This document shows, piece by piece, positions 3,196-52,301 of a stretch of 64,000 nt of DNA. Numbering within the stretch: the stretch's first letter is position 1; every line of letters begins with the position of its first letter. Position numbers and translations under genes: made by a program. The DNA comes from Aurantiacibacter atlanticus (lineage in GTDB: Bacteria; Pseudomonadota; Alphaproteobacteria; Sphingomonadales; Sphingomonadaceae): the NCBI RefSeq assembly GCF_001077815.2, contig NZ_CP011310.1, positions 930,001 through 994,000 of the forward strand, given 5' to 3'. The notes beneath the pieces were generated by a model. It did not search any database. It was not told the origin of the DNA and worked only from the letters and a program-made list of their open reading frames with translations.

Positions 3196-4463
3196 CGTGC
3201 GCCACCGGCGACCATCAGCCCGGCTTCACGCATCGAAGCGAGACGATAGCGAAGGGTGCGTTCGGATATGCCCAATGCCTTTGCGGTGGCCAGCCGGTTG
3301 CCGTTATTACCATCCAGCGTATCGAGGATAATTTGGGCTTCGGACTGGCGCACGATAGCCGAAAGATTGCGGCCACTTGCATTCTCTAGCGGCGGATTGG
3401 TTGGCGAGACGCAGACACCAAGGACCGGCATTACGGCGCTGTCGAACACGATATGCGCGGTGGTTATCGTGCCATCACTGCCTGCCAGCAACAGGGCGCG
3501 GCGAATGACATTTTCCAGCTCGCGTACGTTGCCGGGCCATTTGTGTGCCTCAAGTTTCGCCAGCGCCTCATCACAAATCCAGCGACCTGTTTCGGGGTCA
3601 GGCGCATGACGCAGCAGCATGGCAACGGCCAGCGGGGCGATATCCTCGACACGCTCACGCAAGGCAGTCAGGCGCAGGGGAAACACATTGAGCCGGTAAT
3701 AAAGGTCTTCGCGGAAGCGACCTTCGGCAATCTCACGCGGCAGATCGCGGTTGGTGCAAGCTATGATGCGGACATCCATCTTTACCGGCTGGGTCGCGCC
3801 AAGCGGAACGACCTCGCCTTCCTGCAAGGCACGCAACAATTTGGCCTGGAGACCCAGAGGCATTTCACCCAGTTCGTCCAGCAACAGTGTACCGCCGTCT
3901 GCCGCGCGGAAGAAACCCTCGCTCGCTTCGGTCGCGCCGGTGAAGGCGCCTTTGCGGTGGCCAAACAGCATGGCCTCCAGCATCGTCTCGGGCATGGCTG
4001 CGCAATTCACGGCGATGAAAGGGCCATCGGCGCGGGGGCTGCTCTTATGGATGAAGCGCGACAATACTTCCTTGCCTGTGCCGGTCGGTCCTTCGATCAG
4101 AACGGGGATGGTGCTGGCGGCAACTCGCTCTGCCAAAGTCAGCAGGGCAAGTGATCCGGCATCGGCCAAGATCGGATCGCCCGGCGCGGCAGCAGCCGCA
4201 ACCAGCGAAGCGCGGACCATGCGGGAATCTGCATCATGATAATCAAGGCGCAGCATGTTAGCGCCCATGCGGGTGAGAGCGGGGGTGCCGCTCTTTCCCA
4301 AAACAAGGACCCGGTCTGTGCGGCGGCGGGACAATACATCAGCGGCAGATTCACACAGCTGCAATTCGCCCGAGCCCGGCTGGCCGCAAAGCGATGCGGC
4401 GGCATGTATCGCCAGTTCGGGATGATTTTTTTCAAGCCCTTTAGCGCAGATTGCCCGTGCCAT
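3192..4463 (-). CDS. flbD: Sigma-54-dependent flagellar transcription activator (FlbD-like)
   Basis: A 423-residue bacterial enhancer-binding protein. The AAA+ domain carries a Walker A (GPTGTGKE, residues 125-132), the sigma-54-contact loop GAFTGA (172-177), a Walker B (LLLDELGE) and arginine-finger region, then a C-terminal Fis-type helix-turn-helix (ATAKALGISERTLRYRL). The N-terminal 110 residues resemble a degenerate receiver with no obvious phospho-acceptor pocket, as in Caulobacter FlbD. The start at 4463 is preferred over upstream in-frame codons because AGGGG lies seven bases before it. It heads the fliEFGH operon and is the likely activator of the sigma-54 promoters at 18,584 and 21,098. 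Confidence 0.88.
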   Translation of the reverse strand: MARAICAKGLEKNHPELAIHAAASLCGQPGSGELQLCESAADVLSRRRTDRVLVLGKSGTPALTRMGANMLRLDYHDADSRMVRASLVAAAAAPGDPILADAGSLALLTLAERVAASTIPVLIEGPTGTGKEVLSRFIHKSSPRADGPFIAVNCAAMPETMLEAMLFGHRKGAFTGATEASEGFFRAADGGTLLLDELGEMPLGLQAKLLRALQEGEVVPLGATQPVKMDVRIIACTNRDLPREIAEGRFREDLYYRLNVFPLRLTALRERVEDIAPLAVAMLLRHAPDPETGRWICDEALAKLEAHKWPGNVRELENVIRRALLLAGSDGTITTAHIVFDSAVMPVLGVCVSPTNPPLENASGRNLSAIVRQSEAQIILDTLDGNNGNRLATAKALGISERTLRYRLASMREAGLMVAGGAR

Positions 4464-49457: not shown

Positions 49458-50636
49458 ATGAACAAGAAGGCAGGGTCTGTGGCAGGAGAAATAGATATCG
49501 CCCCCGTTTCGGGCAAGGGCGACCTTAATGCATTTATCGATTGCGCTTATCGATTGAACGCAAATGATCCCAACTGGGTGCCTCCTTTGCGCGCCGACAT
49601 GGTGGAACTGCTCACCCCGGGAAAAAACCCGTTCCACCAACATGCCAGGGTGCAATTGTTCCTCGCCCGTCGTGGTGGAAAGGTCGTGGGGCGAATATCG
49701 GCCCATTATGATGAACTGGCGCTGGCGCAGCCGCCTGAGCAGGGCATGGGGCCCGGAACGGGCAATTGGGGATTGTTCGAGGCCGAGGATGAAGCCATTG
49801 CTGCTTCGCTGATCGCCCGCGCCGAAGACTGGCTGCGCGAACAGGGCATGACCCATGTGCTCGCGCCAATCAGCCTGTCGATGTGGGAAGAGCCGGGCCT
49901 GTTGGTGAAAGGCCACGATCACCAACCCATGCTGCTGATGGGACATGATAACGCGGCCTATGAAGGTTGGGTCGAAGCGCAGGGCTATGTCACGGCCAAG
50001 AAATTGTACACTTATGATCTGCATCACGTGAAGGAGGGATTCCCCCCGATCGTTGATCGCATCGTCGCATCGGGAGAACGTAGCAAGCGGATCAAGGTGC
50101 GAAAAGTCGACAAGTCCCGCTTTGATGAAGAGGCCGCAATTTGTATCGATATCCTCAACGATGCCTGGTCCAGGAACTGGGGTTTCGTGCCCTTTACCGA
50201 AACGGAAAAAGCCTATGGGGCCAAGAAGCTGAAGCCGCTGACGTTGGAAGGCACCAATATGATCGCAGAAGTCGATGGTGAACCCGCCGCCTTTATGCTC
50301 GCCTGGCCCGATATCAACCTCAAGCTGCGCAATTATGGCGGTAAGCTGTTTCCATTCAACTGGGCCAAGCTATTGTGGTGGCTGCGTAACCCGCGGTCGG
50401 AGAATTTTCGCGTTCCCTTGATGGGTGTCGTTTCGAAATACCAGAACACGCGCCTGGCCAGCCAGCTGGCTTTCATGATGATCGAATATATCCGCCGCGA
50501 AGCTGCAACACAGCATGCCGGTGTTCGCGCTGAAATCGGCTGGGTGCTGGAAGATAATCAGGGCATGGTGGCCATTGCCGATGCCATCAATTCCAGGATC
50601 AACCGCGAATATCGCATTTATCGCAAGGAATTGTGA
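49458..50636 (+). CDS. GNAT-like N-acyltransferase family protein, function unknown
   Basis: A 392-residue cytoplasmic protein with a GNAT-type arrangement: FLARRGGKVVGRISAHYDEL near residues 65-85 and, in the C-terminal half, EVDGEPAAFMLAWPDINL and MMIEYIRREAATQHAGVRAEIGWVLEDN. Proteins like this (YghO-like) are widespread in sphingomonads and poorly characterised. A GTG seven codons later (49,479) has a better ribosome site. It is divergent from the desaturase. Confidence 0.6.
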   Translation: MNKKAGSVAGEIDIAPVSGKGDLNAFIDCAYRLNANDPNWVPPLRADMVELLTPGKNPFHQHARVQLFLARRGGKVVGRISAHYDELALAQPPEQGMGPGTGNWGLFEAEDEAIAASLIARAEDWLREQGMTHVLAPISLSMWEEPGLLVKGHDHQPMLLMGHDNAAYEGWVEAQGYVTAKKLYTYDLHHVKEGFPPIVDRIVASGERSKRIKVRKVDKSRFDEEAAICIDILNDAWSRNWGFVPFTETEKAYGAKKLKPLTLEGTNMIAEVDGEPAAFMLAWPDINLKLRNYGGKLFPFNWAKLLWWLRNPRSENFRVPLMGVVSKYQNTRLASQLAFMMIEYIRREAATQHAGVRAEIGWVLEDNQGMVAIADAINSRINREYRIYRKEL

Positions 50637-50720
50637 CTGTGCTTTTCCTGTCTCTGGAACCCATGCATAAGACATGGCTTTAATGCGGGAGGCGCAACTG
50701 ATGTGTCCGGAAGGGTTTTC

Positions 50721-51152
50721 GTGAAATCGGCCAAAGCCAAGCAGGCCCCGAATGTGACGGGCAAGAAGCTCGGCCGGGTTTTGCTGGTTGAGGATGATCC
50801 TGTACTGGCCATGATGCTGGAGGACGCCTTCCTGCAAGCCGGTGCCAGTGAAGTCGTGATCTGCGCGACGATGCAGGCAACGGTAAAGGCACTGGACGAT
50901 GCCCGACCCGATGCCATTGTTCTCGATGTTCATCTGGCGGATCGCAATGATGGCTGGGCCATTGCGGAGGTCGTCACCATGCTTGGGCCAACCCCGCCGC
51001 GTATCGCATTTTCTACCGGCTCACCGCAGGACATCCCGCCTGCCATAGCGGAAATGGGGCCGATTTTCGAAAAGCCCTATGATCCCCAGGCCCTCGTCGC
51101 TGAATTGTCAGCGGGCCGCAAGCGCGGCCTCTTCTCCCGCTTTCTGGGCTGA
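50721..51152 (+). CDS. Single-domain response regulator (FATGUY-like)
   Basis: A 143-residue receiver domain with no output domain. Acidic pocket residues lie in LLVEDDP, phospho-acceptor Asp69 in IVLDVHLAD, and Lys118 in FEKPY. The switch region reads RIAFSTGSPQDIPP, similar to the FATGUY motif of single-domain regulators such as SdrG that act in the sphingomonad general stress response. GGAAGGG lies five bases before the GTG at 50,721. Its place next to phyR supports such a role, which is still inferred. Confidence 0.72.
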   Translation: MKSAKAKQAPNVTGKKLGRVLLVEDDPVLAMMLEDAFLQAGASEVVICATMQATVKALDDARPDAIVLDVHLADRNDGWAIAEVVTMLGPTPPRIAFSTGSPQDIPPAIAEMGPIFEKPYDPQALVAELSAGRKRGLFSRFLG

Positions 51153-51234
51153 TTCCGCCCTGCAGGATTGATCGGATTGGAGATCCAGCACGCCGGGCTG
51201 TCTGCAATTGCCTGTCATCACCTGACGCTGGCCG

Positions 51235-51270
51235 AAAAAAAGGCCTCCACTCTTGTGAGTGAAGGCCTTT
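51235..51270 (-). terminator. Strong terminator of the candidate small RNA
   Basis: The stem AAAGGCCTTCACTC pairs with GAGTGGAGGCCTTT around a four-base loop, then seven T on the minus strand. On the plus strand only three T follow, so it could also stop the response regulator transcript, less strongly. Confidence 0.85.
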
Positions 51271-51319
51271 GGGATCGTATCACCTGCCATTTGGACGGGA
51301 GGGGGGTTGGCGGCGATAT
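51235..51319 (-). ncRNA. Candidate GsrN-like small RNA of the general stress response
   Basis: On the minus strand an EcfG-like promoter would start an RNA near 51,319. A first hairpin has an 8-bp stem CGCCGCCA / TGGC-A-GGTG (51,308-51,315 with 51,281-51,289, one bulge, one G-U) whose 18-base loop contains CCCCCCTCCC. It ends in a 14-bp terminator hairpin (one mismatch) with seven U (51,235-51,270). A C-rich 5' loop plus terminator stem, EcfG control and location beside phyR match the GsrN class, known from Caulobacter to bind stress mRNA leaders. No open frame fits here. Ends are estimates. Confidence 0.6.
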
Positions 51320-51325
51320 AGGCTA

Positions 51326-51350
51326 AATGCTTGTGCAAAATGCCGGTTCC
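51326..51350 (-). promoter_or_regulatory. EcfG-like promoter of the candidate small RNA
   Basis: On the minus strand, GGAAC (51,350-51,346), 16 bases, CATT (51,329-51,326). The -35 and spacing are exact; the -10 differs from CGTT at one base. Confidence 0.5.
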
Positions 51351-51449
51351 CGAATGATTGCAAATCAGTGCATTTTTTTCATTTTACGGGGCAAATGCAG
51401 TGGCGAAGAAGAAAATTGCGGCGAAGTTGCGGAACTGTACGGGTTGACT

Positions 51450-51474
51450 GGAACCGACAGGCGGGCAAGGCGTT
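51450..51474 (+). promoter_or_regulatory. EcfG promoter of phyR
   Basis: GGAAC (51,450-51,454), 16 bases, CGTT (51,471-51,474): exact EcfG consensus, ending 33 bases before the phyR start. This gives positive feedback on the anti-anti-sigma regulator, as known for this pathway. Confidence 0.85.
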
Positions 51475-51506
51475 CAGGTGCAACGATCAATCCGGGAAGG
51501 GCAATC

Positions 51507-52301
51507 ATGACCATAGGGGCTGAAGTAGCCGCACATCTTCCGTTTCTGCGTCGCTATGCGCGCGCGTTGACGGGTTCACAATCAACCGGTGACACCTTTG
51601 TCCAGGCTACCCTGGAAGCAGCGCTCGCCGATGACGAATTGGCAAATTCTCTGCGCGAAGGCCGTGTGCCGCTCTATCGCGCATTCAACAAGGTCTGGTC
51701 CAGCGCCTATATGGAAGTTGCCGAGGGCGATTCCGAAGGGGCGCCGCACGAAGTTGCAGCGCAGGACCAGCTAAAGCGTATTACGCCCCTCAACCGTCAG
51801 GCTCTATTGCTGACCACGGTTGAGGATTTCACGCCCGAACAATCGGCTGAGATCATGGGTGTGGACGAAGACGCAGTAGAATCTCTGGTGCGCGAAGCCG
51901 TCGCCGAGATCGAGCGTGAGACCACCACCAGCGTTCTCATCATCGAGGATGAGCCGCTGATTTCGATGCAACTGGAAGACCTTGTACGGTCGCTTGGCCA
52001 TGATATCTGCGGAACAGCGGCAACACGCACGCAGGCACAGGAAGTGGTGGCGGACAATCGTCCCGGCCTCGTTCTGGCCGATATTCAGCTTGCAGATGGT
52101 TCTTCAGGGCTGGATGCGGTGGAAGATATCCTCGCGATAGATTCGGTGCCGGTAATCTTCATCACCGCTTACCCAGAGCGTCTGCTGACGGGCGATCGCC
52201 CGGAACCGACCTATCTGATTACCAAGCCGTTCCATGAAAATACCGTGCGTGCGGCAATCAGCCAGGCATTGTTTTTCGGATCGAGTCGTCCGCTCGACTA
52301 A
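51507..52301 (+). CDS. phyR: General stress response regulator PhyR
   Basis: A 264-residue regulator with the PhyR layout: an N-terminal sigma-factor-like domain (residues 1-135; FLRRYARALTGSQSTGD, LNRQALLLTTVEDFTPEQSAEIMG) and a C-terminal receiver (142-260) with Glu147/Asp148, phospho-acceptor Asp192 in LADIQLADGSS, Thr220 and Lys240. When phosphorylated, the sigma-like domain sequesters NepR and frees EcfG. The ATG follows GGGAAGGG. NepR and EcfG genes are not adjacent here, unlike many alphaproteobacteria. Confidence 0.95.
   Translation: MTIGAEVAAHLPFLRRYARALTGSQSTGDTFVQATLEAALADDELANSLREGRVPLYRAFNKVWSSAYMEVAEGDSEGAPHEVAAQDQLKRITPLNRQALLLTTVEDFTPEQSAEIMGVDEDAVESLVREAVAEIERETTTSVLIIEDEPLISMQLEDLVRSLGHDICGTAATRTQAQEVVADNRPGLVLADIQLADGSSGLDAVEDILAIDSVPVIFITAYPERLLTGDRPEPTYLITKPFHENTVRAAISQALFFGSSRPLD

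Follow-up and report, generated by a model that had tools for sequence, protein, structure and literature searches.

Genes, promoters and predicted fold at the phyR locus

The window is a 64-kb stretch of the Aurantiacibacter atlanticus genome (contig positions 930,001–994,000), within which we analyzed a gap on the minus strand at positions 51235–51350. By Pfam, its four neighbors encode PhyR, a response regulator, a GNAT-like protein and a MatE protein. The general stress response regulator gene phyR (264 aa; NCBIfam NF006623, 362 bits; Pfam PF22029 and PF22233) lies at 51507–52301 on the plus strand. A single-domain response regulator gene (Pfam PF00072) at 50703–51152 (plus) is convergent to the gap and was recovered by tblastn from 29 of 30 genus loci; its product may be a partner of PhyR. 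The GNAT-like acetyltransferase gene at 49476–50636 (plus), whose start codon is unsettled, gave a weak match to PF00583 (23.5 bits, cut-off 20.7) and none to NCBIfam, with tblastn matches in 30/30 genus loci. Outside the window, nepR and an ECF sigma gene are located at about 916.5–917.4 kb of the contig, with a GGAAC-N16-CGTT motif ~120 nt upstream of nepR. The NepR product scores above its Pfam cut-off, and below that of the NCBIfam NepR model; the sigma gene is called ecfG here from its neighbor. A second ECF-type sigma gene (L032, G000:C1:1013799) is followed by an ORF that appears anti-sigma-like by eye.

An EcfG-type promoter motif, GGAAC-N16-CATT, is present on the minus strand at 51326–51350, as the original prediction had it, with the -35 element GGAAC at 51346–51350 and the -10 element CATT at 51326–51329. 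The motif GGAAC-N16-C[AG]TT recurs with exact spacing in all 30 fetched genus loci (28 CATT, 2 CGTT), while the sequence of the 16-nt spacer varies. The proposal that it stands back-to-back with an EcfG-type promoter of phyR was likewise borne out: GGAAC-N16-CGTT occurs at 51450–51474 on the plus strand, 32 nt 5' of the phyR ATG at 51507, and upstream of phyR in 29/30 genus loci. The two -35 elements are 99 bases apart. The EcfG-type motif alone is not beyond chance: it occurs three times in the window where 1.73 occurrences are expected, and at least three times in 28 of 100 shuffles. It is conservation that lifts the small RNA (sRNA) gene above chance.

The predicted sRNA is 85 nt long, running from 51319 down to 51235 on the minus strand, its putative 5' end lying 7 nt past CATT; a unit of about this length had been predicted, and it is conserved. 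The covariance model R1 matches it at 89.5 bits (G000:C1:981235-981319), the window sequence itself being among the 30 used to build R1. The fold predicted for the 85 nt in isolation (z = -7.5) comprises a hairpin of 11 bp capped by the 18-nt loop ACCCCCCUCCCGUCCAAA and, after a linker of 7 nt, a terminator hairpin of 14 bp. A 92-nt version gave z = -6.5, with none of 200 shuffles equally stable. The 5' hairpin (51278–51318, minus) consists of 7+4 bp with one bulged base, in place of the 8 bp originally described, and 94.6% of its alignment cells are paired over 29 distinct genus sequences. Its exposed, C-rich loop ACCCCCCTCCCGTCCAAA (51290–51307, minus) has the 18 nt foreseen and is the proposed pairing site; CCCCCTCCCGTCCA is invariant in 30/30 aligned genus loci, and across 142 copies the loop has a median unpaired probability of 0.75 (5th percentile 0.60). 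The single-stranded linker CGATCCC follows (51271–51277, minus), of which GATCCC is invariant in the aligned genus loci.

The terminator hairpin and U tail occupy 51235–51270 (minus), with 98.4% of cells paired over 13 pairs and double changes in six. The 14 bp claimed for this terminator are found in the predicted fold, but three of the seven terminal U are paired there, and a simple terminator scan called no terminator at the sRNA, probably because the stem extends into the U-run. The only overlapping frame is a 76-aa ORF with a TTG start (51108–51338, minus), whose overlap is mechanical. The C-run of the loop varies from 5 to 9 bases across relatives, which a conserved frame would not tolerate, and the stretch is therefore non-coding, in agreement with the earlier view that no coding frame fits.

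Conservation and phylogenetic range

BLAST detected the sRNA in 32 of 37 same-genus genomes, its own included, with no match in the other five, and in none of 24 genomes that represent other families in the order. The structure was written down by hand and tested on alignment A1, where 96.7% of cells pair, compared with 29–49% when the partner is slid, and where 36 double-change cells were counted against 6.6 in shuffles. The stems thus covary, the loop is the most conserved part of the sRNA, with a core invariant in 30 genus loci, and the expected conservation of hairpin, loop and terminator in relatives is upheld. The sRNA is divergent to phyR within 450 nt in all 30 genus loci. At the level of sequence, these comparisons establish a gene with a conserved promoter motif, predicted fold and linkage to phyR.

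R1 matched 125 of 298 family genomes, representing 43 of 96 genera, and had no match in the remaining 173. Scores were at least 66 bits in 118 of these genomes and 32–37 bits only in the other seven, which provide the sole matches for three of the 43 genera. At class level, six of 289 genomes matched, three strongly, all from the same family, and three weakly. Reading covered 12 of the 21 family matches that scored under 40 bits, along with the three weak class matches. Twelve of these 15 looked like chance terminators, and one (L066, a class match) has a C-rich hairpin loop but no EcfG-type promoter within 70 nt. The remaining two have both a promoter and a C-rich loop. One, in G343 (L291:3568-3700), is a divergent relative of the sRNA with phyR on one side and an ECF sigma gene on the other; this relative and the sigma gene each have an EcfG-type promoter, and the loop of the relative contains CCCCCCG and is intermediate-looking. 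The other is a second copy in G139 (L292:2465-2576, G139:C35), which keeps the loop but not the stem, has a GGAAC-N16-CGTA promoter and is surrounded by ORFs that by eye resemble transposase and glycosyltransferase genes.

A 15-mer from the loop gave 102 sites, spread over 100 of the 249 family genomes searched, compared with six for the reversed control. Of the 102, at least three represent something other than the phyR-linked gene: the G139 copy and sites in G284 and G248:C1. The last (L322, minus strand, G248:C1:231720) lies ~60 nt downstream of GGAAC-N16-CATT and upstream of an ATG, possibly in the leader of an EcfG-driven mRNA.

A pattern scan of named genomes returned at least 119 stretches, with titles mostly of Erythrobacteraceae genera and Novosphingobium; one Blastomonas and several unclassified MAGs were also among the named stretches listed. 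A phyR start was present in 105 of the 119 named loci listed, and none was seen in 14. In 69 of those 105, the sRNA and phyR diverge within 450 nt of each other, and the phyR promoter was found in 81. In the four longer-gap loci that were read, a gene intervenes between the sRNA and phyR, encoding a Crp-type regulator in the two tested. Across 143 distinct copies (149 loci), GGAAC-N16/17-C[AG]T[TA] precedes 139.

Erythrobacter litoralis HTCC2594 (G265:C1) carries the sRNA at 85 bits with R1, divergent to phyR and with both promoters. In the portion of PMC5869019 used, E. litoralis is an outgroup without an apparent gsrN-like gene, with the strain behind this statement not given in that portion. 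No family of Rfam 15 covers the sRNA, and the 64-kb window yields only two tRNAs at gathering score. In the titles and abstract openings listed by searches of the open-access literature, neither the sRNA nor an EcfG-dependent sRNA of Erythrobacter, Novosphingobium or other sphingomonads is described. The terms sRNA, small RNA, non-coding, intergenic and antisense are absent from the main text of PMC6599016, on the Sphingomonas melonis EcfG regulon.

Comparison with GsrN-type and CcsR/cuckoo RNAs

C-rich anti-Shine-Dalgarno loops are a feature of the CcsR/cuckoo RNAs. In the portion of PMC10253847 used, those of Rhodobacter are, like the sRNA, stress-linked alphaproteobacterial sRNAs; their promoter is of the RpoHI/RpoHII type and their transcription unit includes a DUF1127 gene, whereas the sRNA has an EcfG-type promoter and no DUF1127 gene among its four neighbors by Pfam.

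According to the part of PMC5869019 consulted, GsrN of Caulobacter crescentus (ccna_R0081) is about 100 nt long, has a sigma-T/EcfG promoter (GGAAC-CGTT), a C-tract exposed near its 5' end and a terminator, and in Caulobacteraceae usually lies near phyR, nepR and ecfG. The sRNA shares the promoter type, the exposed 5' C-tract, the terminator and the phyR linkage, and at 85 nt (predicted) is shorter. Further traits of GsrN are expression that depends on sigma-EcfG, stabilization by Hfq, a stable 5' isoform and pairing with the leader of katG. A survey of phyR across the class, covering 28 loci beyond the genus of the window, revealed an RNA in family f70 that is linked to phyR, follows an EcfG-type promoter and contains GCCCCCCCGACUUGA, a stretch complementary to GsrN target letters listed in the portion of PMC5869019 used. 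BLAST found this RNA in 25 of 40 f70 genomes, with phyR inside the fetched flanks in 18 of the 25. Rfam family RF01529 (CC3552) matched the f70 RNAs in both loci scanned, L367 and L381, at 101 and 66 bits, and had no match in loci L290 and L291. From the loop complementarity to the published target letters, we infer that the f70 RNAs are GsrN-type and that CC3552 is GsrN.

Homology of the sRNA to GsrN, as first proposed, was not recovered by covariance searches with GsrN models. RF01529 was not listed for window positions 51150–51520 at E up to 10. Model R2, built from 13 f70 GsrN-type RNAs (14 of 25 f70 loci passed the filter, and one near-duplicate was left out), gave nothing at the sRNA in the window or in 29 genus loci, and matched L342 and L345 at 86 and 81 bits. 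In the reverse direction, R1 run over the 25 f70 loci and L344 gave scattered matches of 8–23 bits. The best overlap with a GsrN-type RNA was a marginal one in L386 (23 bits, E 0.0008), covering the 3' part and terminator, and is read as a shared terminator shape. A separate search for GsrN used a 14-mer derived from the target letters in print and gave sites in 12 of 385 class genomes; all 12 sites lacked an EcfG-type promoter and looked coding by eye.

The two RNA types also differ in loop and architecture. The loop reads (C)n-UCCCGUCCA in the sRNA, compared with GCCCCCCCGACUUGA in most f70 GsrN-type RNAs. The sRNA has a plain apical loop, whereas the GsrN-type RNA of L345 has its C-tract flanked by an outer stem on one side and an inner hairpin on the other; the R2 consensus structure is likewise a nested hairpin, from which the minimum-energy fold of L342 differs. 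The sRNA is thus not placed in the GsrN family, with common descent neither shown nor excluded. We read it as a separate sigma-EcfG sRNA that, by analogy, would work like GsrN through pairing of its loop with G-rich mRNA.

Target searches and proposed role

In a scan of 56 gene starts in the window, the top pairing was the antisense of the sRNA gene itself. Pairing at the phyR Shine-Dalgarno region reached -16.1 kcal/mol; with several starts considered for each gene and the best one kept, the median was -13.7, so that nothing stood out as exceptional. For katG leaders at 15 loci, some with crudely chosen start codons, 17 to 83 of 100 shuffled leaders paired equally well. The 15-mer complementary to the loop (up to two mismatches, six genomes, the six sRNA genes excluded) gave 23 sites, compared with 90 for the reversed control, most of them inside or antisense to ORFs. 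Three sites (L302, L313 and L320) precede an ATG by no more than 50 nt, each in a single genome, and no start-proximal long complement recurred among the six genomes. One place that did recur, in three genomes, is antisense to an ORF of ~580 codons and was set aside. Among 86 gene pairs with shared starts in G000 and G035, drawn from about a quarter of the two genomes, the real loop reached -14 kcal/mol or better in both members of 17 pairs, compared with a mean of 31 for shuffled loops; 55 of 60 shuffled loops reached the real count, and phyR ranked ninth of 86. These tests are weak, because the GsrN pairings listed in the portion of PMC5869019 used are short and the gene-pair comparison is limited to roughly a quarter of two genomes. 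We therefore claim no target, and the negative results disfavor a generic anti-Shine-Dalgarno role.

The gap probably contains a small RNA gene that is driven by EcfG and belongs to the general stress response; its RNA would act in trans, pairing with mRNA through its loop. The PhyR-NepR-EcfG switch is established for Alphaproteobacteria. In the proposed mechanism, stress would lead to phosphorylation of PhyR and release of sigma-EcfG from NepR, and sigma-EcfG would then transcribe phyR rightwards and the sRNA leftwards from the two back-to-back promoters. The transcript would fold into the 5' hairpin with its apical loop (C)5-9-UCCCGUCCA, followed by the terminator, and the loop would most likely base-pair with G-rich stretches in mRNA leaders and alter the translation or the stability of these mRNAs, like GsrN in Caulobacter. 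Transcription and sigma-EcfG control we infer from the promoter and neighborhood; pairing with G-rich RNA, and hence the existence of mRNA targets, is suggested by a loop that is conserved and mostly unpaired.

It is unlikely that the sRNA is instead a true, diverged orthologue of GsrN that kept the promoter, C-tract and locus while the rest drifted. The features it has in common with the RF01529-type f70 RNAs (promoter type, 5' C-tract and phyR neighborhood), the intermediate-looking CCCCCCG loop of G343 and the marginal R1 overlap with one f70 RNA point in that direction, and homologues outside Caulobacteraceae were themselves proposed from locus and promoter, not from sequence, in the portion of PMC5869019 used. 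The absence of RF01529 at E up to 10, the silence of R2 at the window and 29 genus loci, and the placement of the L345 C-tract, so different from a plain apical loop, argue the other way. So do 17 phyR loci (16 genomes) without an R1 match, among which, under a loose filter, only L189 has a promoter, C-run and hairpin, unlike those of the sRNA. The L189 site, on the minus strand near 3562 (G072), consists of an EcfG-type motif followed by the C-run and hairpin, ~1.3 kb from phyR.

We consider it more doubtful still that the sRNA has a protein or some other RNA as its partner instead of mRNA leaders, serving for instance to sequester a C-binding protein as a decoy or a G-rich sRNA as a sponge. 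Such a role would fit the length of the loop core, whose 14 nt, invariant in 30 genus loci, exceed a usual seed, and would also fit the failure of the searches to turn up a conserved mRNA site; the variation of the C-run from 5 to 9 bases suits pairing with G-tracts. That the hairpins are a local cis element, a terminator or leader of neighboring genes, is highly improbable: the sRNA does point towards the response regulator gene at 50703–51152, but the minus strand is the one with the U-run, almost all copies come with a promoter of their own, conservation is highest in the loop, and the G139 genome has a second copy elsewhere, with the same loop on another stem.

A trans-acting, EcfG-driven sRNA remains our preferred reading. 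In family f77, a further candidate (L344, minus strand near 2284) combines a phyR-adjacent EcfG-type promoter, a C-rich hairpin and a terminator (z = -3.0), with no match to RF01529 or R2. We tentatively suggest, at less than even confidence, that EcfG-driven, phyR-linked C-loop sRNAs may have arisen or been rebuilt several times in Alphaproteobacteria, as GsrN/RF01529, the Erythrobacteraceae-Novosphingobium type and the f77 candidate. A conserved candidate beside phyR, in a clade said to be gsrN-less, provides a defined gene to test, and opens the question of shared versus convergent origin for C-loop sRNAs as an arm of the stress response in Alphaproteobacteria. If they did arise repeatedly, a C-rich post-transcriptional arm would recur as a convergent component of the general stress response.
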